Below are positions 3,509-24,790 of a stretch of 64,000 bases of DNA, piece by piece. The stretch covers positions 301,764 through 365,763 of the forward strand of contig BMVA01000007.1 of assembly GCA_014650475.1 (NCBI GenBank), in the 5' to 3' direction. A program made the translations under genes and the position numbers. Origin of the DNA: Streptomyces albogriseolus (GTDB lineage: Bacteria; Actinomycetota; Actinomycetes; Streptomycetales; Streptomycetaceae). The notes beneath the pieces were generated by a model. It did not search any database. It was not told the origin of the DNA and saw nothing but the letters and a program-made list of their open reading frames with translations. Position 1 is the stretch's first letter, and each line of letters starts with the position of its first letter.

Positions 3509-3690
3509 TCACGACCGCGCGGACAGCCTCGGGTCAAGCAGCTCCAGCACTTCCTCCCAGCGGTACCGGTCGGCCCCGCCGCCGGCCTTCGGCCGGTGAG
3601 GCTCGTAGGAGCCGACCAGGACACCCATCTCGCGCAGCAGGTCCAGACTCCGTCGGTATGCAGGGTGGGCGGCCTGGGCGGAGTTCGACC
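3509..3690 (-). pseudogene. Flavoprotein gene remnant (C-terminal fragment)
   Basis: Read on the minus strand, an open stretch ends at a TGA at 3509 and contains AYRRSLDLLREMGV, EPHRPKAGGG and RYRWEEVLELL. This matches, from memory, the C-terminal end of Streptomyces flavoproteins of the phosphopantothenoylcysteine-decarboxylase type, whose last segment carries FRRSVEELR..., EPHPPRTGGG and a Trp-containing helix. The first 100 or more residues of such a protein, including the FMN-binding part, are missing and no start codon fits. I therefore read it as a decayed 3' fragment left by deletion. The fragment is about 50-60 codons. Confidence 0.55.
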
Positions 3691-3722
3691 GATCGGCGGA
3701 GTGGCTCGGGTCGACGAGTGGT

Positions 3723-4706
3723 TCAGCCGTACCGGGTGAACAGGGCGTCGAGGTAGTCCTCCAGGCGGCGGGTGAGGACCTCCGGGGTCAGGTCGGTGCG
3801 GCCGAGGGTGCGCCAGGGGACCGCGACCTTCTCCGCGTCGCCGTAGCCCAGGGCGTCCAGGAGGCGCCAGTAGAGGTGGGCGGGGGCGTCCGGGGCGAGG
3901 GCGCCGCCGGCGGCGGTGTAGCGGTCGGCGAAGTCCATCCCGGCGGGGGCGCCGTGCAGCAGGGCGAGGGCGGTCGAGCAGTGGGCGACGTCCAGGTCGG
4001 CCGGTCCCCAGGAGGTCTCCACCCAGTCGACGACGCCGCTGACCCGCGGGGCGTCGTCGGGGCCGGTGAAGAGGACGTTGCCGGGGTGGAAGTCCCGGTG
4101 CAGGAAGCAGCCCTGGTGGGACGGGGGTTCGCGGCGGATGACGTCGGCGGCACGGCGCCACAGCCCGGGGCGACGGGTGGCCGGGGGCGGTGTCACACGG
4201 TCCGGGGAGGCCCACGCCTGGTAGGCGCGGGGGCGTCGACGCGCGGGCACGGGCAGGCGGTGGATGCGGACGAGGAGGCGGGCCAGCTCGTCGGCCCGGG
4301 TCTCCGCGCCCTGGTCGTGCGGGCGGACGGCTCCCGGGAGGCGGGTCATCAGCAGGGACGGGTGGTCGCAGTGCCGGGCGGTGGCGTCCACCGCGACGAG
4401 CGTGGCCGCCGGGACGTCCGTGGCGGCGAGCAGGCGCAGGATGTCCGCCTCGCGGGTGAGCAGGCCCTCGGCGTGCCGTACGAAGAACGGCTTGACGAAG
4501 GAGCGCAGGACGAGGGAGCGGGGGCCGTCCGGCCCGGTGACGTCCAGGCGGCGCATCTCCGACGTCCAGCCGCCGCGCAGCCGGTCCACCCGCTCGATGC
4601 GTTCCCCGGCGGCCAGGGTCTTCTCCACCCAGGCGCGGGTGGCGTCCCACGGGTGGTCGATGTCTTCGGTCGGGTCGTCGGTCGTGGCCCCCATGCGGGG
4701 CAGCAT
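3723..4706 (-). CDS. Aminoglycoside phosphotransferase family protein
   Basis: A 327-aa kinase-fold protein of the APH/choline-kinase superfamily. The catalytic loop HRDFHPGN is at residues 203-210 (Asp205 catalytic, Asn210 metal-binding), and the DFG-equivalent Asp is in VVDW at 225-228, followed by GPADLDVAH. The substrate is unknown; such chromosomal genes rarely confer drug resistance and more often act on small alcohols or natural products. The start could be the first Met or the Met at residue 5, and neither has an obvious Shine-Dalgarno. It follows an alpha/beta hydrolase gene on the same strand with an 18-bp gap, so the two may be co-transcribed. Confidence 0.85.
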   Translation of the reverse strand: MLPRMGATTDDPTEDIDHPWDATRAWVEKTLAAGERIERVDRLRGGWTSEMRRLDVTGPDGPRSLVLRSFVKPFFVRHAEGLLTREADILRLLAATDVPAATLVAVDATARHCDHPSLLMTRLPGAVRPHDQGAETRADELARLLVRIHRLPVPARRRPRAYQAWASPDRVTPPPATRRPGLWRRAADVIRREPPSHQGCFLHRDFHPGNVLFTGPDDAPRVSGVVDWVETSWGPADLDVAHCSTALALLHGAPAGMDFADRYTAAGGALAPDAPAHLYWRLLDALGYGDAEKVAVPWRTLGRTDLTPEVLTRRLEDYLDALFTRYG

Positions 4707-4724: not shown

Positions 4725-5558
4725 TCAGCCGAGGAAACGGATCAGGTGGTCGTTCAGCTTCTCCGGCTCGGCGACGGGGAGCGAGTGGTGGGTGGCTCCG
4801 GGGAGCACCGTCACCTCGGCCTGCGGCAGCGCCCGGCGGGCCTTGTCGGCGACCTTGGCGGCGTCGTGCGTACGGCTGTGCTCGGCGAGCAGGACCAGGA
4901 CCGGCATGCGGAGTCCGGCGGTCCGGGGGCGGCCGCCGACGACCAGTTTGCGGCCGGGCACGGTGGTGGCCAGGGCGTAGAGGCGCTGCCAGGTCTCGTC
5001 GAGCGGGCGGCCCGCCGTCTCCCAGGACAGGAAGGAGCGGGCGCGGGCCTCGTTCGGGCGGAGTACGGAGGGCAGCGCGCGGAGGAGGTACCCGGGGCGG
5101 AACCCCGCGAACACCTGGGTGGGGTCCAGCAAGGCGAGCCGGTCGAGCCGCCGCGGCGCGTGGAGGGCGTACCGGGCGGCCAGCCAGGCGCCGTAGGAGT
5201 GGCCGCACAGGTGCGTGCGGGTCAGCCCGAGTCCGTCGAGCACCGCGTCCAGCCAGGCCGTGAGGTCGTCGGCGCCCTTCAGCGGAGTGCCCCGGCGTTC
5301 GGTGCGGCCGGCGTCGCCCAGCAGGTCCACCGCGTGCACCCGGAACCGCCGGCCGAGCGCCGGGGCGTTGGCGAACCAGACCAGGCCGGTCGCGGAGCCG
5401 CCCGGCAGCAGCACGAGAGGGGTGCCGTCCGCCGGGCCGTGCACATGCACCCGGGTGGGCCCGTACGGGGTGGCCACGTCCCGCTCCTCCGTGAACTCGG
5501 GCCAGCGGGCGCGGAGTTCCTCGTAGGCACGGTCGAAGGCCGAAGGCGATGCGGACAC
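4725..5558 (-). CDS. Alpha/beta hydrolase
   Basis: A 277-aa cytoplasmic hydrolase. The nucleophile elbow is GHSYGA with Ser121. An oxyanion-hole region LLPGGSATG is at residues 50-58, and a terminal His lies in LPGATHHSLP. The overall pattern resembles carboxylesterases of the YcgS type, but the substrate cannot be inferred. It sits between the SARP-type regulator upstream (46-bp gap, same strand) and the APH-like kinase downstream, suggesting a three-gene minus-strand transcription unit. Confidence 0.86.
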   Translation of the reverse strand: MSASPSAFDRAYEELRARWPEFTEERDVATPYGPTRVHVHGPADGTPLVLLPGGSATGLVWFANAPALGRRFRVHAVDLLGDAGRTERRGTPLKGADDLTAWLDAVLDGLGLTRTHLCGHSYGAWLAARYALHAPRRLDRLALLDPTQVFAGFRPGYLLRALPSVLRPNEARARSFLSWETAGRPLDETWQRLYALATTVPGRKLVVGGRPRTAGLRMPVLVLLAEHSRTHDAAKVADKARRALPQAEVTVLPGATHHSLPVAEPEKLNDHLIRFLG

Positions 5559-5604
5559 GGAGACATCCTGGCGGCCGGGTTCGCCGCATGCAACGGCGCG
5601 CCTC

Positions 5605-7551
5605 TCACCCGTCCGCGTACGCCTCCGCCTCCTCCAGGTACGTCGCCACCGGGCCCAGGGTCAGCATGCCGGCGGCGGCGCCCGCGTGTTCCGTGCGGGC
5701 GTCGCGGAGGGCGGTCGCGGCGCGTGCGGCGGTGTCGTGGTCGCCCAGGCGGACGGCGGCGCGGGCGGTCAGGCACCACAGGGCCTCCTGCAGGTGGTCG
5801 GGCGGTGGTGCGGGGGCCGCGGCGAGGGCGGTCCGGGCCTGGGCGTCGCGGCCCTGGTCGAGCAGGAGGAGGGGTTCGGTCCAGGGGCGGTACGGGCCCC
5901 AGTCGAGGCGGGGATCGGCGGGCGCGGGCCGGCCGTGCAGCAGGCGCAGGCCCAGCAGGGCGAGCGGGAGCAGGCCGCGGTGCAGTCCGGGCATGCCCGC
6001 CGTACGGAGGGCCTCGTCGGCGGTGCGGTAGTGCGCAGCGACCGTGGCGGGGGACGGTCCGCCGGGCTCGGTGCTGCGGGCCGCCGCGACCCGGGCCCGG
6101 AACCACGCCGTGAGGACGGGGACGAGGGGCGCCTCGGTGGCGGCGGCGAGCCGTTCGGCGGCTTCCGCGTGCGTGGACGCGGTGTCCAGGTCGCCGAGGG
6201 CGGAGGCGGACTGGAGGCGGACGAGCCGGCCGAGCACGGCGAAGGCGGGCAGGCCGTGCGCGGTGGCCAGGTCGAGGATCTCGGCGCCGGTGCGGTCGCG
6301 TTCCGCCGCGAGCCCGGGGCGGGTGAAGGACTGGAGGAACACCCCGTTGAGGGCGAACACCAGCAGGGCGGGGTCGCCCAGGTCCCGGGCCAGCGCCTGA
6401 GCCCGCCGGGCCGCGTCCCGGGCGCGGTCCCGCTCCGGCGGGGTCAGGCCGGCGCTGCGGCTCTCGACCGCGACGGTGGCCAGCAGGCGGGCGGTCAGGT
6501 CGGCGGGGGCGTCGGGCCCGAGCGCGGCGAGCGTACGGACGGCGGCCTCGACGACCGCCCGGGACTGCGCGGGGTCGTCGGCCCGGCTCCACAGGGCGGG
6601 CACGTCGTAGGCGCCGATGATCCGGGCGGTGAGGGCGAGGTCGCCGGTGCGTTCCGCCGCCGTGATCGCGGCGAGACGGTCGCTGCGGGAGCGGACCAGT
6701 GCGTCGCCGCCCGCCAGGGCGAGGGTGCGGGCCAGGTCCAGGGTGGTGCGCGGGCCGAGCGGGACGCCGGGACCGGTCCAGGTGGTGGCCGGGGCGGCGG
6801 ACGGGGTGGTCCCGTTGAGGATGTCCGTCTCCAGGCGCAGCAGGTCGGCGCCCGGGTCGAGTCCGAGCTGGTCGGCGAGGGTCGCGCGGGCGCGGCGCAG
6901 GGTGTCCAGCGCGTCGGCGCGGCGGCCCGCGTGGTGCAGGGCGCGGGCGAGGAGCGTCCAGGCGGGTTCGCGCCACGGGTGTGCGGCGACCTGGTCGCGC
7001 AGGTCGGTGACGAGGCCGGCGCCCTCGCCCCGGTCGAGGAGGATGCGGGCGCGCAGTTCGACCGCCTCCGCACGCAGCTCCTCCAGCCGGGCCCGCTCGC
7101 GCTCCGCCCACGCGGAGCCGGTCACATCGGCGTAGGCGGGACCGCGCCAGGCCGCGAGCGCCTCACCGAGCGCGGCCACCTCGCCGGGGGTGCGCCGGGC
7201 GCGGGCGAGGGCGTCCTGGAAGCGGTGCGCGTCGACGTCCTCGCGCGGCAGGCGCAGGGCGTAGCCGGGGCCCTCGGTGACCAGGACGCGCGGCGGGGTG
7301 CGGGGCGGCCGGCCGGGTTCGAGGGCACGGCGCAGCGCGGCGACGAACGTGCGCAGGGCGCCGACGGCACGGGCCGGCGGCTGCTCGGCCCACAGGTCGT
7401 CGACGAGCGTCTCGGTGGTGACCATCCGCCCCTCGGCGGCGACGAGACGGCCGAGGACCTCACGGTGCCGGGGGCCGCCGAGGGGGACGGGGGTGCCGTC
7501 GTCCCTGAAGGCCCGGACGGCGCCGAGCACGTCGATGCGCATGGTTCCCAT
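5605..7551 (-). CDS. AfsR/SARP-family regulator with BTAD domain
   Basis: A 648-aa putative transcription activator. Residues 1-95 form an OmpR-like winged-helix DNA-binding domain (MRIDVLGAVRAF ... GPRHREVLGRLV ... LVDDLWAEQPP). Residues about 100-245 are the bacterial transcriptional activator domain, seen as FQDALARARRTPGEV and EPAWTLLARALHHAGRRADAL. The remaining 400 residues are Ala/Arg-rich helical, TPR-like repeats without a P-loop, so this is a medium-size SARP lacking the NB-ARC ATPase of AfsR. A second start at Met4 is equally plausible. It is divergent from the hydrolase at 7689, and the 137-bp gap probably carries its operator. Downstream targets are likely the neighbouring hydrolases, but this is inference. 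Confidence 0.85.
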   Translation of the reverse strand: MGTMRIDVLGAVRAFRDDGTPVPLGGPRHREVLGRLVAAEGRMVTTETLVDDLWAEQPPARAVGALRTFVAALRRALEPGRPPRTPPRVLVTEGPGYALRLPREDVDAHRFQDALARARRTPGEVAALGEALAAWRGPAYADVTGSAWAERERARLEELRAEAVELRARILLDRGEGAGLVTDLRDQVAAHPWREPAWTLLARALHHAGRRADALDTLRRARATLADQLGLDPGADLLRLETDILNGTTPSAAPATTWTGPGVPLGPRTTLDLARTLALAGGDALVRSRSDRLAAITAAERTGDLALTARIIGAYDVPALWSRADDPAQSRAVVEAAVRTLAALGPDAPADLTARLLATVAVESRSAGLTPPERDRARDAARRAQALARDLGDPALLVFALNGVFLQSFTRPGLAAERDRTGAEILDLATAHGLPAFAVLGRLVRLQSASALGDLDTASTHAEAAERLAAATEAPLVPVLTAWFRARVAAARSTEPGGPSPATVAAHYRTADEALRTAGMPGLHRGLLPLALLGLRLLHGRPAPADPRLDWGPYRPWTEPLLLLDQGRDAQARTALAAAPAPPPDHLQEALWCLTARAAVRLGDHDTAARAATALRDARTEHAGAAAGMLTLGPVATYLEEAEAYADG

Positions 7552-16226: not shown

Positions 16227-17663
16227 TCACCCGCCGGGGCGCAGCGCGGCGAGCCGTTCCGCGAAGGGGGTCACGTTCTCGAACGTGTCCTTCTTGGGCA
16301 GCGGGGCACCCACGGGCGCCGCCCGCCGGTCCGCGGCGCCGGGCTGCGGGGCCGTCCCCCGGCCGGGCGCGGCCCCGGGCCCCGGTGACGGCTGCCCGTT
16401 CGGCGCGGCCGTACCGCTGCCCGCAGGGCTGCCCGGCGAGGACGCACGGCCACCGGGCGCGGCCCCATCCCGCGGGGCTGTCCCCTGAGCGCCGGACGCC
16501 GCCATCCGGGGCTCCGCCCCGTCGGCGGAGGTTCCCGTCGCGGTTGACGGTTCGCCGCCGCTCGGCGCGTTCGGCCCACGGCCCACGGGGCCGCCCTGCA
16601 CGGAACCCCGGCCACCGGGCACGGCCACGGCCCCCGGCGACAGGCAACCGTCCCGACCCGGCCCGCCGCCCGCAGGGCCGCCCTGCACGGAACCCCGGCC
16701 ACCAGGCACGGCCGCAACCCCCGGCGACGGATGACCGTCCCGACCCGGCCCGCCGCCCACGGGGCCGCCCTGCACGGAACCCCGGCCACCGGCCACGGCC
16801 CCCGGCGACAGGCGACCGTCCCGACCCAGCCCACTGCCCGCGACGCCACCCTCCACGGAACCCCGGCCACCGGCCACGGCCCCCGGCGACAGGCGACCGT
16901 CCCGACCCAGCCCACTGCCCGCGAGGCCCCCCTCCGCGGAACCCCGGCCACCGGGCACGGCCGCAACCCCCGGCGACGGATGACCGTCGCGACCCAGCCC
17001 GCCGCCCGCGAGGCCACCCTGCAAGGAGCCCGGGCCACCGGGCACGGGTACGGCCGTCGGCCCCGGCGACGGACGGCCGTCCGGGCCCGGGCCGCGGACC
17101 GAAGTGGGGGCCTGCCGGAGTGCAGGGTCGGCTCCCGCGCCCGCCGCCAAGGCGGCCAGTTCGCCCGCCGCCCGCCCGATGCGGGCGTTCAGCCCCTCCG
17201 CGCCCCAGTCCTCCGACGCCGCGTAGACGCCCGTCGGGACGACGACCGCGCGGAGGTAGGAGAAGAGGGGACGGAGCGCGTGGTCCAGGACCAGGGAGTG
17301 ACGCGCGCTGCCGCCCGTCGCCGCGATCAGCACCGGTGTGCCGGTCAGGGCCTCCGGGTCGGTGGAGCTCAGCGCGTCGAAGAAGGACTTGAACAGCCCG
17401 CTGTACGACGCGGAGAACACCGGGGTGACCACGATCAGCCCGTCCGCCCCGCTCACCGCGTCGAACGCCTCCGACAGCGCCGGCCCGGGAAAGCCGTTGG
17501 TGAAGGTGTGCGCGATCTGCACGGCGAGGTCCCGCAGCTCGACCACCCGGACGCCGGCCGGATCCGCACCGGCCGAGGCGGCCGCGGCCGAGGCGAGCCG
17601 GTCGCCCAGCAGCCGTGTGGACGACGGCACGCTCAGCCCGGCCGACACGACGACGATCCTCAT
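16227..17663 (-). CDS. NADPH-dependent FMN reductase (CE1759-like) with tandem-repeat insertion
   Basis: The first roughly 175 residues are a flavodoxin-fold FMN reductase (RIVVVSAGLSVPSSTRLL, VVTPVFSASYSGLFKSF, ATGGSARHSL) of the type paired with luciferase-like monooxygenases. It would supply reduced FMN to the neighbouring enzyme. The last residues NVTPFAERLAALRPGG match the normal family C-terminus. Between them lie about 280 residues of Gly/Pro/Arg/Ser-rich sequence built from repeats such as GGRGSVQGGP and GRDGHPSPG. Normal members are about 200-230 aa; this is 478. ATG 17663 overlaps the monooxygenase stop (ATGA). The insertion keeps frame, so the gene may still be active with a disordered loop. 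Confidence 0.85.
   Translation of the reverse strand: MRIVVVSAGLSVPSSTRLLGDRLASAAAASAGADPAGVRVVELRDLAVQIAHTFTNGFPGPALSEAFDAVSGADGLIVVTPVFSASYSGLFKSFFDALSSTDPEALTGTPVLIAATGGSARHSLVLDHALRPLFSYLRAVVVPTGVYAASEDWGAEGLNARIGRAAGELAALAAGAGADPALRQAPTSVRGPGPDGRPSPGPTAVPVPGGPGSLQGGLAGGGLGRDGHPSPGVAAVPGGRGSAEGGLAGSGLGRDGRLSPGAVAGGRGSVEGGVAGSGLGRDGRLSPGAVAGGRGSVQGGPVGGGPGRDGHPSPGVAAVPGGRGSVQGGPAGGGPGRDGCLSPGAVAVPGGRGSVQGGPVGRGPNAPSGGEPSTATGTSADGAEPRMAASGAQGTAPRDGAAPGGRASSPGSPAGSGTAAPNGQPSPGPGAAPGRGTAPQPGAADRRAAPVGAPLPKKDTFENVTPFAERLAALRPGG
16594..17100. repeat. Minisatellite inside the FMN reductase gene: 87/81-bp tandem units
   Basis: Five clear head-to-tail copies start at 16594, 16681, 16768, 16849 and 16930, with lengths 87, 87, 81, 81 and 87 bp. 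A sixth, more diverged copy starts at 17017. Each unit begins CCCTGCACGGAACCCCGGCC or a close variant. All lengths are multiples of three, so the array encodes repeats of 29 or 27 residues. Identity between neighbouring copies is high, indicating recent duplication by slippage or unequal recombination. Confidence 0.92.
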
Positions 17664-18766
17664 GTCCGCGCCCCTTCCTGGGCCGTGGCGCCCTTCCGCG
17701 CGGCGCCCAGCAGCGAGGCGTGCGTGGGCGCCTCCGGCACGTCCGCCGGGCGGTTCCTGGCGAACTCCTTCCGCAGCACCGGCACGACCTCCTCGCCGAG
17801 CAGGTCGAGCTGCTCCAGCACCGTCTTCAGCGGCAGCCCGGCGTGGTCCATCAGGAACAGCTGGCGCTGGTAGTCGCCGGCGTAGTCGCGGAAGGACAGC
17901 GTCTTCTCGATGACCTGCTGCGGGGAGCCCACGGTCAGCGGGGTCTGCGCGGTGAACTCCTCCAGCGAGGGCCCGTGCCCGTACACCGGCGCGACGTCGA
18001 AGTACGGCCGGAACTCCCGCACCGCGTCCTGCGAGTTCTTCCGCATGAACACCTGCCCGCCGAGGCCGACGATCGCCTGCTCGGGGGTGCCGTGCCCGTA
18101 GTGGGCGTACCGGGACCGGTACAGCTCGACCATCCGCTTCGTGTGGTCGGCCGGCCAGAAGATGTTGTTGTGGAAGAAGCCGTCGCCGTAGTAGGCGGCC
18201 TGTTCGGCGATCTCCGGCGAGCGGATGGATCCGTGCCAGACGAACGGCGGCACGCCGTCCAGCGGGCGGGGCGTGGAGGTGAAGCCCTGCAGCGGGGTGC
18301 GGAAGCGTCCCTCCCAGTCGACGACGTCCTCGCGCCACAGCCGGTGCAGCAGGGCGTAGTTCTCGACGGCGAGGTTGATGCCCTGCCGGATGTCCTGGCC
18401 GAACCAAGGGTAGACCGGGCCGGTGTTGCCGCGGCCCATCATCAGGTCCACCCGGCCGTCGGCCAGATGCTGGAGCATCGCGTAGTCCTCGGCGATCTTC
18501 ACCGGGTCGTTGGTGGTGATCAGCGTGGTGGAGGTGGACAGCAGCAGCCGCTCGGTGCGGGCCGCGATGTAGCCGAGCATGGTGGTCGGCGAGGACGGCA
18601 CGAACGGCGGGTTGTGGTGCTCGCCGGTCGCGAACACGTCCAGGCCCACCTCCTCGGCCTTCAGCGCGATGGCGACCATGGCCTTGATCCGCTCGCGCTC
18701 GGTCGGCGTGCGCCCCGTGGTCGGGTCGGGGGTGACGTCCCCGACGCTGAAGATCCCGAACTGCAT
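17660..18766 (-). CDS. LLM-class flavin-dependent oxidoreductase (CE1758-like)
   Basis: A 368-aa bacterial-luciferase-like monooxygenase, full family length. Signatures are the N-terminal FGIFSVGDV, EEVGLDVFATGEHHNPPFVPSSP, the barrel motif TTNDPVKIAEDYAMLQHLADGR and GRGNTGPVYPWFG. It should use FMNH2 and O2 to oxidise an organic substrate of unknown identity. The reductase that would supply FMNH2 is encoded next, overlapping by 4 bp. ATG 18766 has GGAAGGTGAG in good position. A MarR gene lies upstream on the same strand, and a palindrome 21-34 bp before the start is a likely operator. Confidence 0.92.
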   Translation of the reverse strand: MQFGIFSVGDVTPDPTTGRTPTERERIKAMVAIALKAEEVGLDVFATGEHHNPPFVPSSPTTMLGYIAARTERLLLSTSTTLITTNDPVKIAEDYAMLQHLADGRVDLMMGRGNTGPVYPWFGQDIRQGINLAVENYALLHRLWREDVVDWEGRFRTPLQGFTSTPRPLDGVPPFVWHGSIRSPEIAEQAAYYGDGFFHNNIFWPADHTKRMVELYRSRYAHYGHGTPEQAIVGLGGQVFMRKNSQDAVREFRPYFDVAPVYGHGPSLEEFTAQTPLTVGSPQQVIEKTLSFRDYAGDYQRQLFLMDHAGLPLKTVLEQLDLLGEEVVPVLRKEFARNRPADVPEAPTHASLLGAARKGATAQEGART

Positions 18767-18786
18767 GGCCGCTCACCTTCCAGGTT

Positions 18787-19959: not shown

Positions 19960-20739
19960 ATGGCCCCCGCCGTACCGCCCGCCGCGTCCCGTATCGCCGT
20001 CGTCACGGGCGCGAGCAGCGGGATCGGCGCCGCCACGGCACGCAGGCTCGCCGAGGCCGGCTACCGCGTCGTCCTCACCGCCCGCCGCAAGGACCGCATC
20101 GAGGTGCTCGCCGAGGAGCTCACCGCGGCCGGGCACTCGGCGACGGCGTACCCCCTCGACGTCACCGACCGCGCCGCCGTCGACGAGTTCGCCACCGCCT
20201 TCCGCACCGTCGGCGTGCTGGTCAACAACGCGGGCGGCGCGCTCGGCGCGGACCCGGTCGCCACCGGCGACCCGCAGGACTGGCGCACGATGTACGAGAC
20301 CAACGTCATCGGCACCCTCAACCTCACCCAGGCCCTGCTGCCCAAGCTGGACGCGAGCGGCGACGGCACGGTCGTGGTGGTCTCCTCCACCGCCGGGCAC
20401 GCCACCTACGAGGGCGGCGCGGGCTACGTCGCCGCCAAGCACGGCGCGCACGTCCTCGCCGAGACCCTGCGCCTGGAGATCGTGGGCCGGCCGGTGCGGG
20501 TGATCGAGATCGCGCCCGGGATGGTGAGGACGGAGGAGTTCGCCCTCACCCGGTTCGGCGGCGACGCGGACAGGGCCGCCAAGGTCTACGAGGGCGTCGC
20601 CGAGCCCCTCACGGCGGACGACGTGGCCGACACCATCACCTGGGCGGTGACCCGCCCGCCGCACGTCAACATCGACCTGCTGGTCGTCCGCCCGCGCGCC
20701 CAGGCGTCGAACACCAAGGTGCACCGGGAGGCGCGATGA
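19960..20739 (+). CDS. SDR-family NADP-dependent oxidoreductase (YdfG-like)
   Basis: A 259-aa classical short-chain dehydrogenase. The cofactor motif TGASSGIG is at residues 16-23, with Arg residues after beta-2 (TARRKDR) suggesting NADPH. NNAGGAL is present, the catalytic Ser is in VSSTAGH and the YVAAK motif supplies Tyr/Lys. APGMVRTEEF follows and resembles YdfG/serine-3-dehydrogenase members that act on 3-hydroxy acids. Start ATG 19960 is preceded by GAGGAG. Its stop overlaps the start of the small membrane peptide gene (ATGA). Confidence 0.9.
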   Translation: MAPAVPPAASRIAVVTGASSGIGAATARRLAEAGYRVVLTARRKDRIEVLAEELTAAGHSATAYPLDVTDRAAVDEFATAFRTVGVLVNNAGGALGADPVATGDPQDWRTMYETNVIGTLNLTQALLPKLDASGDGTVVVVSSTAGHATYEGGAGYVAAKHGAHVLAETLRLEIVGRPVRVIEIAPGMVRTEEFALTRFGGDADRAAKVYEGVAEPLTADDVADTITWAVTRPPHVNIDLLVVRPRAQASNTKVHREAR

Positions 20740-20876
20740 CCACGGACGGCGAACGGCGCCGCCTCGCGCTGGAGAAGAAGCGCGAGCGCTACGTCTGGAT
20801 CTACCTCGGGTACTTCCTCTTCGGCATCCACATCGTGGCCTTCGTGATGATGTACGCGGTCACGCACGCCAAGTAG
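20736..20876 (+). CDS. Small membrane protein (46 aa), DUF6126-like
   Basis: A 46-residue protein translationally coupled to the SDR by a 4-bp ATGA overlap. A charged N-terminus (about 18 residues, many Arg/Lys/Glu) precedes one transmembrane helix with WIYLGYFLFGIHIVAFVMM, ending in AVTHAK. It resembles the short Streptomyces proteins grouped as DUF6126, identified from memory. Codon bias is typical for the genome, which supports a real gene. Function unknown. Confidence 0.75.
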   Translation: MTTDGERRRLALEKKRERYVWIYLGYFLFGIHIVAFVMMYAVTHAK

Positions 20877-20927
20877 GGCGATCCTGTACGGGTACGGGGG
20901 GACACCCGGCACCGAGGAGGACCGGCC

Positions 20928-21491
20928 ATGCACGACGTGACCTATGCGATGGGCATCTCGCTCGACGGCTACATCACCGGGCCGGACGGCGGCCTCGACT
21001 GGTCGGCGCCCGAGGAGGAGGTCTTCCGCTTCTGGATCGACGAGACCCGGAAGCTCGGTGTCCATCTGCTCGGCCGGCGGCTGTACGAGACGATGCTCTA
21101 CTGGGAGACCGCCGCCGACGACCCGTCGCTCGGTGACGCGGAGCGCGAGTGGGTCGAGGTGTGGAACCCGCTGCCCAAGGTGGTCTTCTCCCGCACGCTG
21201 ACAGAAGTGAAGGGCAACGCCCGCCTGGCCTCCGGCAGCGTCGCCGAGGAGATCGCGCGGCTGCGGCAGGAGCCGGGCGAGGGCGAGATCGCGATCGGCG
21301 GCGCGACGCTCGCCGCCGAGGCCGCCGCGGCGGACCTGATCGACGAGTACCGCACGGTCGTCCACCCGGTCCTGGTCGGTGGGGGCACCCGGTACTTCCC
21401 GCACGACGAGCGCCGCGTCCAACTGGACCTCGTGGAATCCCGCATGCTCACCCCGAACGTGGCCTACCTCCGCCACCGCGTGAAGCGGTAG
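20928..21491 (+). CDS. Dihydrofolate-reductase-fold protein (RibD C-terminal family)
   Basis: A 187-aa soluble protein of the RibD_C/DHFR superfamily. It has the N-terminal AMGISLDGYITGPDGGLDW, the middle LGRRLYETM and the cofactor-binding IAIGGATLAAEAAAADLIDEYR, followed by HPVLVGGGTRYFP. It probably reduces a small molecule with NAD(P)H; the true substrate of these stand-alone members is unknown. ATG 20928 has GAGGA upstream. It is followed by the hairpin-containing leader of the homing endonuclease gene. Confidence 0.85.
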   Translation: MHDVTYAMGISLDGYITGPDGGLDWSAPEEEVFRFWIDETRKLGVHLLGRRLYETMLYWETAADDPSLGDAEREWVEVWNPLPKVVFSRTLTEVKGNARLASGSVAEEIARLRQEPGEGEIAIGGATLAAEAAAADLIDEYRTVVHPVLVGGGTRYFPHDERRVQLDLVESRMLTPNVAYLRHRVKR

Positions 21492-21517
21492 CCGGGACCG
21501 GAGCCGGCTCCCGCCGA

Positions 21518-21537
21518 GTTGACTCACACGAGTGAAC
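21518..21537. promoter_or_regulatory. Imperfect 20-bp inverted repeat
   Basis: GTTGACTC and GAGTGAAC, separated by ACAC, form arms with 7 of 8 matching bases downstream of the RibD-like gene. TAGGCT at 21576-21581, further on, resembles a Streptomyces -10 box without a clear -35. Together they may mark a promoter for the endonuclease gene. Confidence 0.3.
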
Positions 21538-21603
21538 CTCGGTCGATCACCCATACGGCCGCTGAACGGCCGACCTAGGCTCGCGCCAGACGATCAACTC
21601 GAC

Positions 21604-21638
21604 GGCCCTCGCCCGGATGCCGGTCCGGAGCGAGGGCC
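21604..21638 (+). terminator. Strong hairpin upstream of the endonuclease gene
   Basis: GGCCCTCGC and GCGAGGGCC pair over 9 bp. An inner CCGGA/TCCGG stem adds 5 bp, leaving one bulged A and a 6-nt loop. There is no T tract. It may terminate the RibD-like transcript or structure the endonuclease leader; it ends 27 bp before that gene's ATG. Confidence 0.6.
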
Positions 21639-21647
21639 TGACCAGCA

Positions 21648-21664
21648 AGGAAGGCACGCTTCCT
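21648..21664 (+). promoter_or_regulatory. Hairpin sequestering the endonuclease ribosome-binding site
   Basis: AGGAAG (21648-21653) pairs with CTTCCT (21659-21664) over loop GCACG. The 5' arm is the Shine-Dalgarno AAGGAAGG, and the ATG at 21666 follows the 3' arm by one base. In folded RNA the ribosome-binding site would be masked, keeping translation low or conditional. Confidence 0.6.
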
Positions 21665-21665
21665 C

Positions 21666-22499
21666 ATGGCTGCATGCGAGCCTAACGTTCATTCGTTCAT
21701 GGACCTCACGGTCCCCGAGTACGCCTACATGTTCGGCTTCCTTCAGGCCGACGGGCACCTGGCACAAGGTGATGGCCAGAAGGGCCGGCTGACGGTGGAG
21801 GTCAGCGCCAGAGACATCGACATCCTTCGCGAGTTCCAGAGGCTGACGCCGTACAACAGCAGCATTACTCGGCGCACCCGCTCCACCAACTTCGCCGAGA
21901 CCCATACCTCTGCTGTCTGGCGCCTGTGCTCCCTGGAAGCCAGGACCATCCTCAACGACCTCGGCCTCCCCTACGGACGCAAGTCGAGGACGGTCGCACC
22001 GCCACGTGGAGCCTTCTCGAACCGCGACTACCTGCGAGGAGTCGTCGACGCCGATGGATCGGTGGGATACACGAGCAGGGGGTTCCCCTTCGTCTCGCTC
22101 ACGACGGCCAGCACAGCGATCGGCCGCCACCTCTGCGCCTACGTCGAAGAGGTCACAGGAGTCCGGCGAACGATCGCACGTAATGCCCGGGACGGCATCT
22201 ACAACGTGCTCGTCGCCATGGAAGCGGGCCAGCGTCTGGCAGCCGACCTGTACTACCCGGGCTGCCTCGCACTGGACCGAAAGCAGGCCGCCGCCGACTC
22301 GCTCGCCGGCTGGGCACGCCCGGCGGGGATGCGGTCCGCCTACACGGCGCGGCGCTGGAGCCCGGACGAGGACCGAGTGCTGCTGCAACTCGGCAGCCCG
22401 ACCGCGGCAGCCGAAGTGCTCGGCCGCACCCCGAGGAGCTGCAATCTCCGCATGTGGCGGCTCCGGGCCGGTCACGTACCCCAGCCCGGCGAGCGGTGA
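21666..22499 (+). CDS. Free-standing LAGLIDADG homing endonuclease
   Basis: A 277-aa protein with two LAGLIDADG motifs: YMFGFLQADG (residues 21-30) and YLRGVVDADG (122-131). The acids in the ADG parts (Asp29, Asp130) would bind metal and cut both strands. The C-terminal 50 residues (RRWSPDEDRVLLQLGSPTAAAEVLGRTPRSC...) look like a Myb/SANT-type DNA-binding module. The gene has more A/T-ending codons than its neighbours (e.g. CCT AAC GTT CAT), suggesting transfer. No exon, intein splice motif or intron core is visible, so it appears free-standing. It converges on rtcB, 47 bp away. The target site is unknown. Confidence 0.85.
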   Translation: MAACEPNVHSFMDLTVPEYAYMFGFLQADGHLAQGDGQKGRLTVEVSARDIDILREFQRLTPYNSSITRRTRSTNFAETHTSAVWRLCSLEARTILNDLGLPYGRKSRTVAPPRGAFSNRDYLRGVVDADGSVGYTSRGFPFVSLTTASTAIGRHLCAYVEEVTGVRRTIARNARDGIYNVLVAMEAGQRLAADLYYPGCLALDRKQAAADSLAGWARPAGMRSAYTARRWSPDEDRVLLQLGSPTAAAEVLGRTPRSCNLRMWRLRAGHVPQPGER

Positions 22500-22506
22500 C
22501 CGGTGT

Positions 22507-22538
22507 GGAGGCCCCAGGCGCTCGCGCCCGGGGCCTCC
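22507..22538. terminator. Bidirectional terminator hairpin between endonuclease gene and rtcB
   Basis: GGAGGCCCC and GGGGCCTCC form 9 bp, then an A/C mismatch, then 4 more pairs around loop CTCG. It lies between two convergent stops and is followed by a C-rich run. Confidence 0.75.
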
Positions 22539-22546
22539 CCCCCCTG

Positions 22547-23740
22547 TCAGCCCTTCACACAGACGAACTGCTTCAGCTTGGCGACGACCTCCACCAGATC
22601 ACGCTGCTGCTGCATCACCTGGTCGATGTTCTTGTAGGCGCCCGGGATCTCGTCCAGCACGCCGGAGTCCTTACGGCACTCCACACCGCGCGTCTGCTCC
22701 TCGAGGTCCCGCACGGTGAAACGCCGCTTCGCCGCGTTCCGGCTCATGCGACGCCCGGCGCCGTGGGAGGCCGAGTTGAAGGCCTTTTCGTTGCCGAGCC
22801 CCTTCACGATGTAGGAACTCGTCCCCATCGACCCGGGGATGATCCCGTACTCGCCGGAGCCCGCGCGGATCGCTCCCTTGCGGGTGACGAGCAGGTCCAT
22901 CCCCTCGTAGCGCTCCTCGGCCACGTAGTTGTGGTGACAGGAGATCTCCTGCTCGAAGACCGGCTTCGCCTTCTTGAGCTCCTTGCGGACGACGTCCTTG
23001 AGGAGCCCCATCATGACCGCGCGGTTGTACTTCGCGTACTCCTGCGCCCAGTACAGGTCGTTCCGGTACGCCGCCATCTGAGGCGTGTCCGCCACGAAGA
23101 CGGCGAGGTCCCGGTCGACCAGGCCCTGGTTGTGCGGGAGGCTCTGCGCGATGCCGATGTGGTGCTCCGCCAGTTCCTTGCCGATGTTGCGGGAGCCGGA
23201 ATGCAGCATGAGCCAGACCGCGTCCGACTGGTCGAGGCAAAGTTCGATCATATGATTTCCGGATCCGAGCGTCCCCATCTGCTTCGCCGCCCGCTCCTCA
23301 CGGAACTTCACCGCGTCCGCGACCCCGCCGAACCGGGTCCAGAAGTCGTCCCAGCCGCCCGTCGCGAAGCCGTGCAGACGGCCGGGGTCCACCGGGTCGT
23401 CGTGCATGCCGCGGCCCACCGGAATCGCCTGCTCGATCTTCGAGCGCAGGCGGGACAGGTCGCCGGGCAGGTCGTTCGCCGTCAGGGACGTCTTCACCGC
23501 CGACATGCCGCAGCCGATGTCCACGCCCACGGCGGCGGGGCAGACCGCGCCCCGCATCGCGATGACCGAGCCGACCGTGGCGCCCTTGCCGTAGTGCACG
23601 TCCGGCATCACGGCGAGGCCCTTGATCCAGGGCAGTGTGGCGACGTTCCGCAGCTGCTGGAGCGCGCCCTCCTCGACCGTCGCCGGGTCCGTCCACAGAC
23701 GGATCGGCACCTTCGCGCCCGGCAGTTCCACATACGACAT
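22547..23740 (-). CDS. rtcB: RNA-splicing ligase RtcB
   Basis: A 397-aa GTP- and Mn-dependent RNA ligase that joins 2',3'-cyclic-phosphate (or 3'-phosphate) ends to 5'-OH ends. All key sites are present: the metal Cys in GVDIGCGM, GSGNHMIE, LHSGSRNIG, the HHN motif in CHHNYV, and the guanylylated His in ASHGAGRRMSR. The frame is unbroken, so no intein interrupts it, although RtcB hosts inteins in other organisms. ATG 23740 has GAGGA upstream. The gene stands alone; no archease or RtcR regulator is nearby. Its 3' neighbour is a homing endonuclease gene in the opposite orientation. Confidence 0.95.
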   Translation of the reverse strand: MSYVELPGAKVPIRLWTDPATVEEGALQQLRNVATLPWIKGLAVMPDVHYGKGATVGSVIAMRGAVCPAAVGVDIGCGMSAVKTSLTANDLPGDLSRLRSKIEQAIPVGRGMHDDPVDPGRLHGFATGGWDDFWTRFGGVADAVKFREERAAKQMGTLGSGNHMIELCLDQSDAVWLMLHSGSRNIGKELAEHHIGIAQSLPHNQGLVDRDLAVFVADTPQMAAYRNDLYWAQEYAKYNRAVMMGLLKDVVRKELKKAKPVFEQEISCHHNYVAEERYEGMDLLVTRKGAIRAGSGEYGIIPGSMGTSSYIVKGLGNEKAFNSASHGAGRRMSRNAAKRRFTVRDLEEQTRGVECRKDSGVLDEIPGAYKNIDQVMQQQRDLVEVVAKLKQFVCVKG

Positions 23741-23956
23741 GGCGTCCTCGTTCCCCCGGAAAAACAACAGAAGTCCCATAACGCAAAACCGGCGCCAAGG
23801 TCGGCGAAAAGGGATATCGGACCGGCGTCCGCGGCAGTGCGTGCGATACACATTGTCTGCGAACGGCTCCCCCCTGCGGCAAGCGATTAACCAGCGGGGA
23901 CACTGGAAGGATCCGGCGGGCCGCGGCCCGCACCCACCGTCGAGAGGACCTGGACC

Positions 23957-24790
23957 GTGCAGCGGAAGGCGTACGGACCCGGCGTCGCCGCGCTCCTCGC
24001 GGCCGTACTGGCCGGCTGCACCGGCAGCCCGGACGGCGGCGGACAGGCGGACGACTCCAACCCGGGCAGCGCCGGCACGGCGACCCAGGCGGCCCAGCCC
24101 GGCCGGTACGCCACCCTTCCCGAGCCCTGCGGCGCCGTCGACGACCGGACGCTGGAGGAACTGCTCCCCGGGCTCACGGAGTTGACGGACGAACAGCAGC
24201 GGGAGAAGGCGTACGCGGGCGAGGCGACGCTCACCTACGACACCGACCGCAAGGTGGGCTGCCGTTGGAAGGTGGAGTCCCTCGCGGCGACCGACCGGCT
24301 GCTGGTCGACTTCGAACGGGTCGTCTCCTACGACAACGCGGTCAGCGACGACGCCCAGGCCGAGGAGCTGTTCGCCCGCAGGCAGACGGCGGCGCAGCTG
24401 CCCGAGCCGACGGTGACCGGCTCCGGCTCCCCCTCCCCGACCGGCTCCGGCGCGACGACCGGCCCGGCGGACCCGAGCGGATCCGCGACGGCGTCCGGCT
24501 CGCCCTCGTCGCCCTCGTCCACCGAGTCGCCCTCCGTCTCCCCCTCCGACCTCCAGCCGCGGGTCCTGGAGGACCTCGGCGACGAGGCGTTCCTCGACGA
24601 CGCGCTCGACCGCTCCGGTTCGACGGTCCAGGAGCGCACCGTCACTGTGGCGTTCCGCACGTCCAACGTCATCGTGACCATCGAGTACGCGGAGCAGCCG
24701 GTGACCGTCGGAGCCGTCCCGGACAGCAAGGAAATGCAGGACAGGGCCCGGAAACTGGCCGTCGAGCTGTCCGACGCGCTGGGCGGCTGA
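23957..24790 (+). CDS. DUF3558 lipoprotein
   Basis: A 277-aa secreted lipoprotein. The signal peptide ends in lipobox LAGC with Cys21. A folded domain begins at RYATLPEPCGAVDDRTLEELLPG, which with a second Cys in KVGCRWKVES is the DUF3558 pattern. A Ser/Pro/Gly linker interrupts the domain at about residues 150-200. Function is unknown; DUF3558 proteins are abundant actinobacterial surface lipoproteins. GTG 23957 is preceded by GAGAGGA. A second DUF3558 gene follows 118 bp downstream, so the pair probably arose by duplication. Confidence 0.85.
   Translation: MQRKAYGPGVAALLAAVLAGCTGSPDGGGQADDSNPGSAGTATQAAQPGRYATLPEPCGAVDDRTLEELLPGLTELTDEQQREKAYAGEATLTYDTDRKVGCRWKVESLAATDRLLVDFERVVSYDNAVSDDAQAEELFARRQTAAQLPEPTVTGSGSPSPTGSGATTGPADPSGSATASGSPSSPSSTESPSVSPSDLQPRVLEDLGDEAFLDDALDRSGSTVQERTVTVAFRTSNVIVTIEYAEQPVTVGAVPDSKEMQDRARKLAVELSDALGG

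Follow-up and report, generated by a model that had tools for sequence, protein, structure and literature searches.

A Free-Standing LAGLIDADG Endonuclease Probably Dedicated to the RNA Ligase Gene rtcB in Streptomyces

The genome of Streptomyces albogriseolus carries, next to the RNA ligase gene rtcB, a free-standing gene of a LAGLIDADG homing endonuclease. Judging by comparison of sequences, this is probably an rtcB-specific homing endonuclease, which would have been spread by intronless homing with co-conversion and would have captured a promoter/leader of the scr4677 type. The evidence comprises the linkage of the endonuclease to rtcB, the position of introns in phage rtcB, empty sites, the decay of copies, sequence diversity centred on the predicted target, and one mosaic tract. 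The whole stretch of 64,000 nucleotides that was analysed is referred to as the window, and coordinates are those of the window unless a locus is named.

The Endonuclease Gene and Its Neighbourhood

The endonuclease gene occupies positions 21666..22499 of the plus strand and is an open reading frame of 277 aa with an ATG start codon, recognised by Pfam, PHROG, alignment and structure-profile matches. The protein matches Pfam LAGLIDADG_3 (E = 1.8e-8) and PHROG 4645, "endonuclease" (1.8e-17), and LAGLIDADG_3 matches all 37 aligned relatives, one of which (L157) is devoid of the N-terminus. The first LAGLIDADG motif, YMFGFLQADG with the acid D29 (21726..21755, plus strand), is nearly invariant in alignment A2, and the second, YLRGVVDADG with the acid D130 (22029..22058, plus strand), is invariant. 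In the 37-sequence alignment, D128, D130 and G131 of the second motif are invariant and D29 and G30 of the first are nearly so; thus, the family has a catalytic acid in each of two LAGLIDADG motifs. Among solved structures, the endonuclease profile found 2dch (E = 5.7e-5), which we take to be I-Tsp061I, and I-AniI (1p8k, 0.0045). PADLOC reported a generic homing endonuclease and nothing more specific (E = 4.4e-4). The gene is present in a single copy in its own genome.

The rtcB gene (22547..23740, minus strand) encodes an uninterrupted RNA ligase of 397 aa (Pfam RtcB, 1.7e-123, 413 bits). Its stop codon lies at 22547, so the two genes are tail-to-tail, and the 47-bp spacer between both stop codons (22500..22546) contains, as read from the sequence, a GC-rich inverted repeat resembling a terminator. 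No intron family, including RF00028, matches in positions 20500–24500, and Pfam reveals no splicing (Hint) domain in the endonuclease or RtcB. The sequence-only reading, made earlier on the same DNA, had described an apparently intact two-motif enzyme that lies outside any intron or intein and 47 bp from rtcB, and these points are borne out. It had also proposed a C-terminal Myb/SANT-like module. With the best-represented Pfam Myb model, matches were obtained for 2 of the 37 family members (best E = 0.031), and no Pfam Myb model matches the window protein at E <= 0.1; the putative Myb-like helix-turn-helix DNA-binding module (22350..22481, plus strand) is thus weakly supported.

Elsewhere in the window, a minus-strand frame (16227–18776) enters a stretch that looks FMN-reductase-like by eye, with a Gly/Pro-rich imperfect repeat at about 16270–16900.

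Linkage to rtcB in Bacterial Genomes

The endonuclease was found in 60 of 392 sampled Streptomyces genomes, and rtcB in 376 of them. A check of co-occurrence, suggested in the earlier reading, showed that 59 of the 60 carriers have the two genes tail-to-tail, and the remaining one (G279) has no rtcB. The placement was determined by tblastn on the loci for 47 carriers and by comparing endonuclease and rtcB coordinates for 12, with G279 in addition. In all 47 measured loci the gap from the endonuclease to the end of rtcB is −3 to 232 bp, with a median of 66. In a second collection of 58 Streptomyces loci, which shares some strains with the first sample, a full rtcB adjoins the endonuclease in 55, only codons 1–64 of it in one, and none in two.

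A class-wide sample (296 genomes) contains three carriers outside Streptomyces. One of them, G492, belongs to another genus and has the endonuclease tail-to-tail with rtcB, as in Streptomyces. The other two, G497 and G569, lack an rtcB of this type; their endonuclease lies near a gene of the pyridoxamine-oxidase family. A phylum-wide sample of 198 genomes, overlapping the class sample, added no further genus with the endonuclease. The earlier reading had considered that the pairing with rtcB might be due to chance and had expected scattered homologues in this case. Only G497 and G569 were found off rtcB, neither with a recognisable rtcB of this type. Chance is excluded, because 59 of the 60 Streptomyces carriers, G492 and all ten close viral or plasmid loci examined (see below) have the endonuclease on rtcB.

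Loss of rtcB as a route of escape was considered and rejected: rtcB is absent in 1 of 60 carriers vs. 15 of 332 non-carriers (E limit 1e-60), so its loss is not enriched among carriers. Three loci without a full rtcB (L043, L075 and L082) are single cases. In L075 (S. olivaceus NRRL B-3009), rtcB is reduced to codons 1–64 (positions 5814–6008 of the locus), the target is absent, and the endonuclease match is full length. In L085 (S. acidiscabies NRRL B-16521), about 1.8 kb of other DNA interrupts the endonuclease gene (5372–7147). In another genus of the family, two genomes contain extra partial copies of the rtcB 3' part downstream of rtcB, beside unassigned genes (3642–4028 and 5387–5551 in L232; 1900–2325 in L233), and no match to the endonuclease family was found there.

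Phage and Plasmid Relatives

The close relatives of the endonuclease from phages and plasmids share about 35–46% identity with it, and rtcB is located at the endonuclease in 10 of 10 loci examined. These are L089–L093 from phage and plasmid records and L154–L158 from viral contigs; the close Bacillus phage records H2 and H4 are outside this count. As L092 and L157 apparently come from a single phage, and the matches of L154 and L155 are identical, the ten loci represent about six lineages. As far as sequence comparison goes, this location on rtcB appears to be the strongest argument against a chance pairing. Among 40 distant relatives (no more than 31% identity), rtcB adjoins none within the stretches covered; in one of them, L193, rtcB lies about 2.5 kb from the endonuclease.

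The mode of association differs between the close loci. L089–L091 are the Bacillus Herelleviridae phages Goe17, 278BB001 and BSP36, with 44–46% identity of the endonuclease. In L089, the endonuclease is encoded inside a group I intron of rtcB (RF00028, 68.3 bits), and the intron region of L090 and L091 is nearly the same in sequence. In L158, it is inside a group I intron (RF00028, 68.4 bits) of a very different rtcB. The endonuclease of L158 (4998–5747) lies on the strand opposite to the enclosing rtcB and group I intron. L092/L157, L093 and L156 have an uninterrupted rtcB with the endonuclease immediately after it, and in L154/L155 the endonuclease immediately precedes rtcB. Internal stops are present in the copy of L093, and the L092/L157 copy is without its N-terminus. 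Two further possibilities raised in the earlier reading, invasion of the site and descent from an old mobile insert of rtcB, are thus supported jointly, as an rtcB-specific mobile family that elsewhere resides in group I introns of rtcB.

That the insert had been an intein of rtcB, a gene known to host inteins in other organisms, is not supported: neither the endonuclease nor RtcB contains a splicing domain, and rtcB is intact. A weak hint in the opposite direction may be seen in the match of the endonuclease to the endonuclease part of the NCBIfam model RtcB_rel_intein (E = 0.099, 10.5 bits, cut-off 1150). RtcB itself matches two NCBIfam RtcB intein models, one with 4.8e-136 and the best stretch from residue 77, the other with 6.3e-36 from residue 148; this second model is the one that the endonuclease matches weakly. 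The better model suggests an intein position near residue 77, away from codons 161|162, which are split by the phage introns.

The Predicted Target in rtcB

Conserved active-site motifs commonly serve as homing sites. Both group I introns split GGT|AAT, which corresponds to codons 161|162 of the window rtcB and to the GxG|NH metal-site motif. His163 of the window RtcB aligns with residue 203 of the Pyrococcus horikoshii enzyme (counted from the alignment), and His203 is reported to be a ligand of one of its two Mn ions (PMC10630183). The target was set at 161|162 from the phage introns before the association scan. The predicted recognition and cleavage region comprises codons 156–168 (23237..23275, minus strand), centred on 161|162 (23258|23257), and is suggested by the intron site, the association peak and a dip in GC3. 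A comparison of rtcB genes indicated that an overlapping polymorphic, AT-enriched segment, codons 161–176 (23213..23260, minus strand), has the derived allele GNHMIELCLDQSDAV in the window.

The scan compared 73 distinct rtcB sequences of carriers with 59 of non-carriers in 40 windows of codons, the non-carriers being a non-random set, namely the top-ranked genomes by similarity of RtcB to that of the window. L043, L075 and L082, without full rtcB, and L030, of irregular length, were dropped, and 12 duplicates were removed (145 to 133 sequences). L118 was counted as a carrier because an endonuclease remnant was found in it. Codons 161–170 ranked first of 40 for association with carriage (mean 1.91), followed by codons 261–270 (1.46) and 171–180 (1.44). 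The strongest single position is in codon 169, and the next are in codon 268 and codons 375–376; beyond the target, association is thus also strong at codons 267–268 and 375–376. Non-carriers mostly have GNHFVEVCTDTTGSV or a sequence near it at the target, and the sequences of carriers are highly varied. Of the 73 carriers 22 retain F164, as do 49 of the 59 non-carriers and all 16 sequences of the outgroup, which consists of rtcB from other genera of the family, none with the endonuclease beside it.

The base composition at the target is also unusual. GC3 of codons 162–176 is 0.596 in carriers, 0.698 in non-carriers and 0.904 in the outgroup, vs. 0.93–0.96 in codons 1–110. The dip is also present in Streptomyces without the endonuclease: the 15-codon window of lowest GC3 starts at codons 148–166 in 56 of 73 carriers and 43 of 59 non-carriers. 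In the outgroup, GC3 at the target is at least 0.93 in 13 of 16 sequences and low in L246, L247 and L250 (values of 0.53, 0.60 and 0.67 among the three). Neither a tblastn search with the family nor a motif scan of the longest open frames revealed another homing endonuclease gene beside rtcB in these three. Perhaps their low GC3 is due to past carriage or to another endonuclease. Synonymous divergence of Streptomyces rtcB is highest at codons 151–180, so the target signal lies in the DNA and goes beyond what the protein alone would give.

Control for Relatedness

Two comparisons were made with relatedness taken into account. Of 23 disjoint pairs of carriers and non-carriers matched on codons 1–145, 17 had the more derived target in the carrier, 1 had it in the non-carrier and 5 were tied (p = 1.4e-4). 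The corresponding counts at other codons were 14 vs. 7 for 111–150, 4 vs. 11 for 241–270 and 15 vs. 5 for 301–397.

The second comparison used an rpoB tree in which 39 carriers were combined with 38 non-carriers (77 genomes in all), and 13 independent pairs were drawn from it; G342 (no rpoB match), G339 (partial match) and G313 (on account of its rtcB) were left out. At the target, carriers exceeded non-carriers 9 vs. 1 by amino acids, with 3 ties (p = 0.021), and 9 vs. 2 by nucleotides (p = 0.065). By amino acids, codons 111–150, 180–240 and 301–397 each gave 9 vs. 2. By nucleotides, codons 301–397 gave 12 vs. 1 (p = 0.0034), a stronger result than that of the target. The counts were 2 vs. 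5 for codons 1–60, 5 vs. 5 for codons 61–110 and 2 vs. 7 for codons 241–270, i.e., there is no excess in codons 1–110. Thus, a modest association with the target appears to persist after control for the species tree. The altered block of rtcB begins at about codon 111 and, codons 241–270 excepted, continues to the 3' end beside the endonuclease. This shape is as expected for conversion tracts that run from the target through the cassette, and it does not alone single out the target; the association outside the target may also be produced by a second cut site or by plain linkage.

Empty Sites, Mosaic Tracts and Decay

The earlier reading had suggested looking for the empty site in strains without the gene, and such sites were found: endonuclease-less relatives have 21–37 bp in place of the cassette. 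In the window, the inserted cassette (leader, endonuclease gene and spacer) covers 21498..22546 of the plus strand, with edges defined by BLASTN against the endonuclease-less Streptomyces L095 (1049 vs. 25 bp). Of seven comparisons four are clean, the other three being L032/L095 (1048 vs. 26 bp), L068/L131 (1038 vs. 37 bp) and L031/L099 (1054 vs. 21 bp). Two were made against L110 (948 and 947 vs. 17 bp, the former with L039), and L071/L104 is unclean (1271 vs. 703 bp). L110 keeps both cassette edges and the carrier-type target of its relative L039; by these sequence features, it is best read as a recent loss of the endonuclease that left a deletion scar.

Mosaic structure was observed in the rtcB region. 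The flanks of the window and S. werraensis L032 are mostly 91–100% identical, and the segment of about 21800–23400, which begins within the endonuclease gene and reaches slightly beyond the target, is 63–90% identical, with the minimum of 63% around the target at 23257. Codons 121–186 of L032 are nearest to other carriers (80%), and codons 1–110 and 187–397 are nearest to the endonuclease-less L099 (94%) and L095 (96%). S. coelicoflavus L068 compared with the endonuclease-less L131 shows 91–100% identity in codons 1–135, 60–73% in codons 151–180, 89–100% in codons 181–255 and 73–89% from there to the end. In a partial Mantel test of 65 loci, endonuclease distances correlated with those of the rtcB 3' part (partial r 0.32, permutation p 0.001), and the partial r for the 5' part was 0.015. 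Matching of endonuclease to target alleles was rejected (partial r about 0, p = 0.47 in the 65 loci; 0.07 in the rpoB-tree set). The mosaic pair and the partial Mantel test would both be in keeping with co-conversion between target and gene.

An alternative is standard homing at the insertion point, in which a short intergenic site would be recognised, the cassette would split its own target, and the rtcB polymorphism would reflect linkage. The short distance from the endonuclease to the rtcB end in 47 of 47 loci (−3 to 232 bp, median 66) is in line with it, as are the association of codons 371–377 near the rtcB 3' end and the nucleotide excess in codons 301–397, the clearest in the independent pairs. 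However, the empty sites of different species groups have, by eye, little in common, relatives occupy either side of rtcB or its interior, and the intron site coincides with the association, synonymous and GC3 peaks at codons 151–180, about 0.7 kb away. We therefore consider standard homing unlikely.

The copies of the endonuclease differ in their state. Of the 60, 42 appear to have an open frame of about 245 residues or more, in-frame stops occur in 5, and the other 13 are fragmentary or frameshifted, so that 18 of 60 are broken; among 37 open copies, dN/dS is about 0.24–0.28. On the 77-genome rpoB tree, carriage must have changed 14 times or more, by gain or loss, compared with a mean of 25.9 and a minimum of 18 changes in shuffles, and because it is clustered in this way, the pattern is partly one of inheritance. 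Both the clustering and the dN/dS of the open copies favour an old, vertically inherited insertion, now neutral or domesticated as a DNA-binding regulator of the rtcB locus. WhiA, said to be a domesticated LAGLIDADG regulator, serves as the comparison case. Nevertheless, we find this explanation quite improbable: both catalytic acids are conserved, broken copies are frequent, presence is patchy (60 of 392 genomes), and there are the mosaic tract and the separate carriage in phage introns, on a plasmid and in another genus. A WhiA-like regulator in particular was rejected on the kept catalytic residues and the unstable presence. Repeated gain, decay and loss, together with some inheritance, fit the pattern.

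That codons 111–180 of Streptomyces rtcB simply evolve fast, with carriage differing between clades by chance, is likewise very unlikely: these codons are the most variable part of rtcB by nucleotides in carriers and non-carriers alike, and 3 of 16 outgroup genomes have low target GC3 without the endonuclease, but the synonymous and GC3 peaks go beyond what looseness of the protein explains, carriers exceed matched non-carriers, and the phage intron site was fixed ahead of the scan.

The Leader of the scr4677 Type

The endonuclease gene is preceded by a promoter/leader of the scr4677 type (21487..21664, plus strand; Rfam RF02673, 41.7 bits with a gathering threshold of 41), which contains a GC hairpin and a second hairpin that covers the likely ribosome-binding site, and which ends at the start codon. 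An scr4677 match above threshold is found at the equivalent place in 6 of 13 loci, 12 of the 13 being Streptomyces carriers. Matches to this family occur in 49 of 61 sampled genomes, often several in each. In other copies, the match extends up to the start codon of an HTH-like protein of a single type (20 of 20 loci). The idea that these genes might also be homing endonuclease genes was dropped, as they encode this different type in all 20 loci; one of the proteins matches HTH_36 with 4.4e-4, below the curated cut-off. They are called SCO4676-like after the Rfam family and PMC3896431, the S. coelicolor sequence being outside the comparison. The leader of the endonuclease can be aligned with those of SCO4676-like genes, and the alignment shows a common operator-like palindrome, the GC hairpin, TGACCA and the hairpin over the likely ribosome-binding site. 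A hidden group I intron in the Streptomyces leader was also considered and rejected, as Rfam shows scr4677 only. The scr4677 RNA is described as expressed in three Streptomyces species (PMC3896431). Thus, scr4677 looks like a conserved promoter/leader module that is used by the endonuclease too. Presumably, the endonuclease captured this host module after entering Streptomyces.

Proposed Mechanism

We propose an endonuclease family dedicated to rtcB, whose likely target is the DNA encoding the GxG|NH metal-binding motif at codons 161|162. The enzyme would cut rtcB alleles with the ancestral target, and the host would repair the break from a homologous locus carrying the endonuclease. In this process of intronless homing, the repair tract would carry over the altered target along with the 3' part of rtcB and the endonuclease cassette. 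Silent and amino-acid changes recode the target in the carriers' own rtcB and would in this way protect them. The cassette would move with the captured scr4677-type promoter/leader of Streptomyces, and the endonuclease copies would afterwards decay and then be lost. The phage-intron site in rtcB looks scarred in Streptomyces, as one would expect for a natural gene-drive-like element.

A further-reaching possibility is that the cassette and the recoded rtcB act as a self/non-self nuclease pair, which spreads like a gene drive, has diversified the target codons across the genus, and cuts the rtcB of incoming phages and plasmids. Several phage and plasmid rtcB genes do retain the ancestral GxGNHF motif. 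We regard this as speculative and rather unlikely; if true, it would amount to a counterpart of restriction-modification that works by recoding the target and has been co-opted against the RNA-repair genes of invaders.

If intronless homing is the correct explanation, a selfish gene has moulded the sequence beside the active site of a conserved RNA ligase. One endonuclease lineage on one gene, found in phage introns, on a plasmid and in bacterial chromosomes, opens the passage between the intron-borne and the free-standing state to study. The proposal specifies a precise target, distinguishes protected from unprotected alleles and predicts empty sites, which makes intronless homing in a bacterial chromosome directly testable. 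The scr4677 small-RNA family of S. coelicolor is also linked to a second, mobile type of gene.

Comparison with Known Systems

The enzyme has detectable profile similarity to the solved LAGLIDADG enzymes 2dch and I-AniI (1p8k). I-AniI is intron-encoded, and the Streptomyces gene is free-standing. To our knowledge, the host genes of the 2dch enzyme and I-AniI are unrelated to rtcB. The rtcB introns of Goe17, 278BB001 and BSP36 share the endonuclease family and the host gene with Streptomyces; however, the phage copy resides in a self-splicing intron at codons 161|162, whereas the Streptomyces gene is outside any intron, and none was seen in the full-length Streptomyces rtcB genes examined. F-CphI of cyanophage S-PM2 (PMC6083498) offers another parallel. 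It is reportedly an example of collaborative homing. Like the Streptomyces enzyme, F-CphI is described as free-standing, with a target related to an intron site in a nearby gene, but it belongs to a different nuclease family. The leader resembles the SCO4676/scr4677 locus of S. coelicolor, where a promoter/leader of the same Rfam family is described right before the start codon (PMC3896431); in contrast to the HTH-like proteins behind other scr4677 copies, the gene here is an endonuclease.

The closest parallels in mechanism are SegF and SegG of T4-like phages. For such free-standing phage enzymes, a form of intronless homing has been described in which the cut site is distant and co-conversion takes place (PMC2988022). 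As in the account given there, the Streptomyces gene is free-standing beside the gene that it probably targets, with a predicted distant cut site, a putative co-conversion tract and a proposed exclusion of endonuclease-less alleles. Unlike SegF and SegG (GIY-YIG) and Mob (HNH) of phages, the Streptomyces enzyme is a chromosomal LAGLIDADG protein, and, unlike in SegF/SegG, the diversity of its likely target is visible genus-wide. A role of an intron endonuclease in competition between phages has been reported as well (PMC11620839). A search of open-licence PMC papers by title and the start of the abstract found no description of an rtcB-specific endonuclease. Intronless homing by free-standing endonucleases of phages is an already known kind of mobility; what appears, from these comparisons, to be new is a LAGLIDADG enzyme loyal to one gene, both intron-borne and free-standing, with a genus-wide mark at its likely target.
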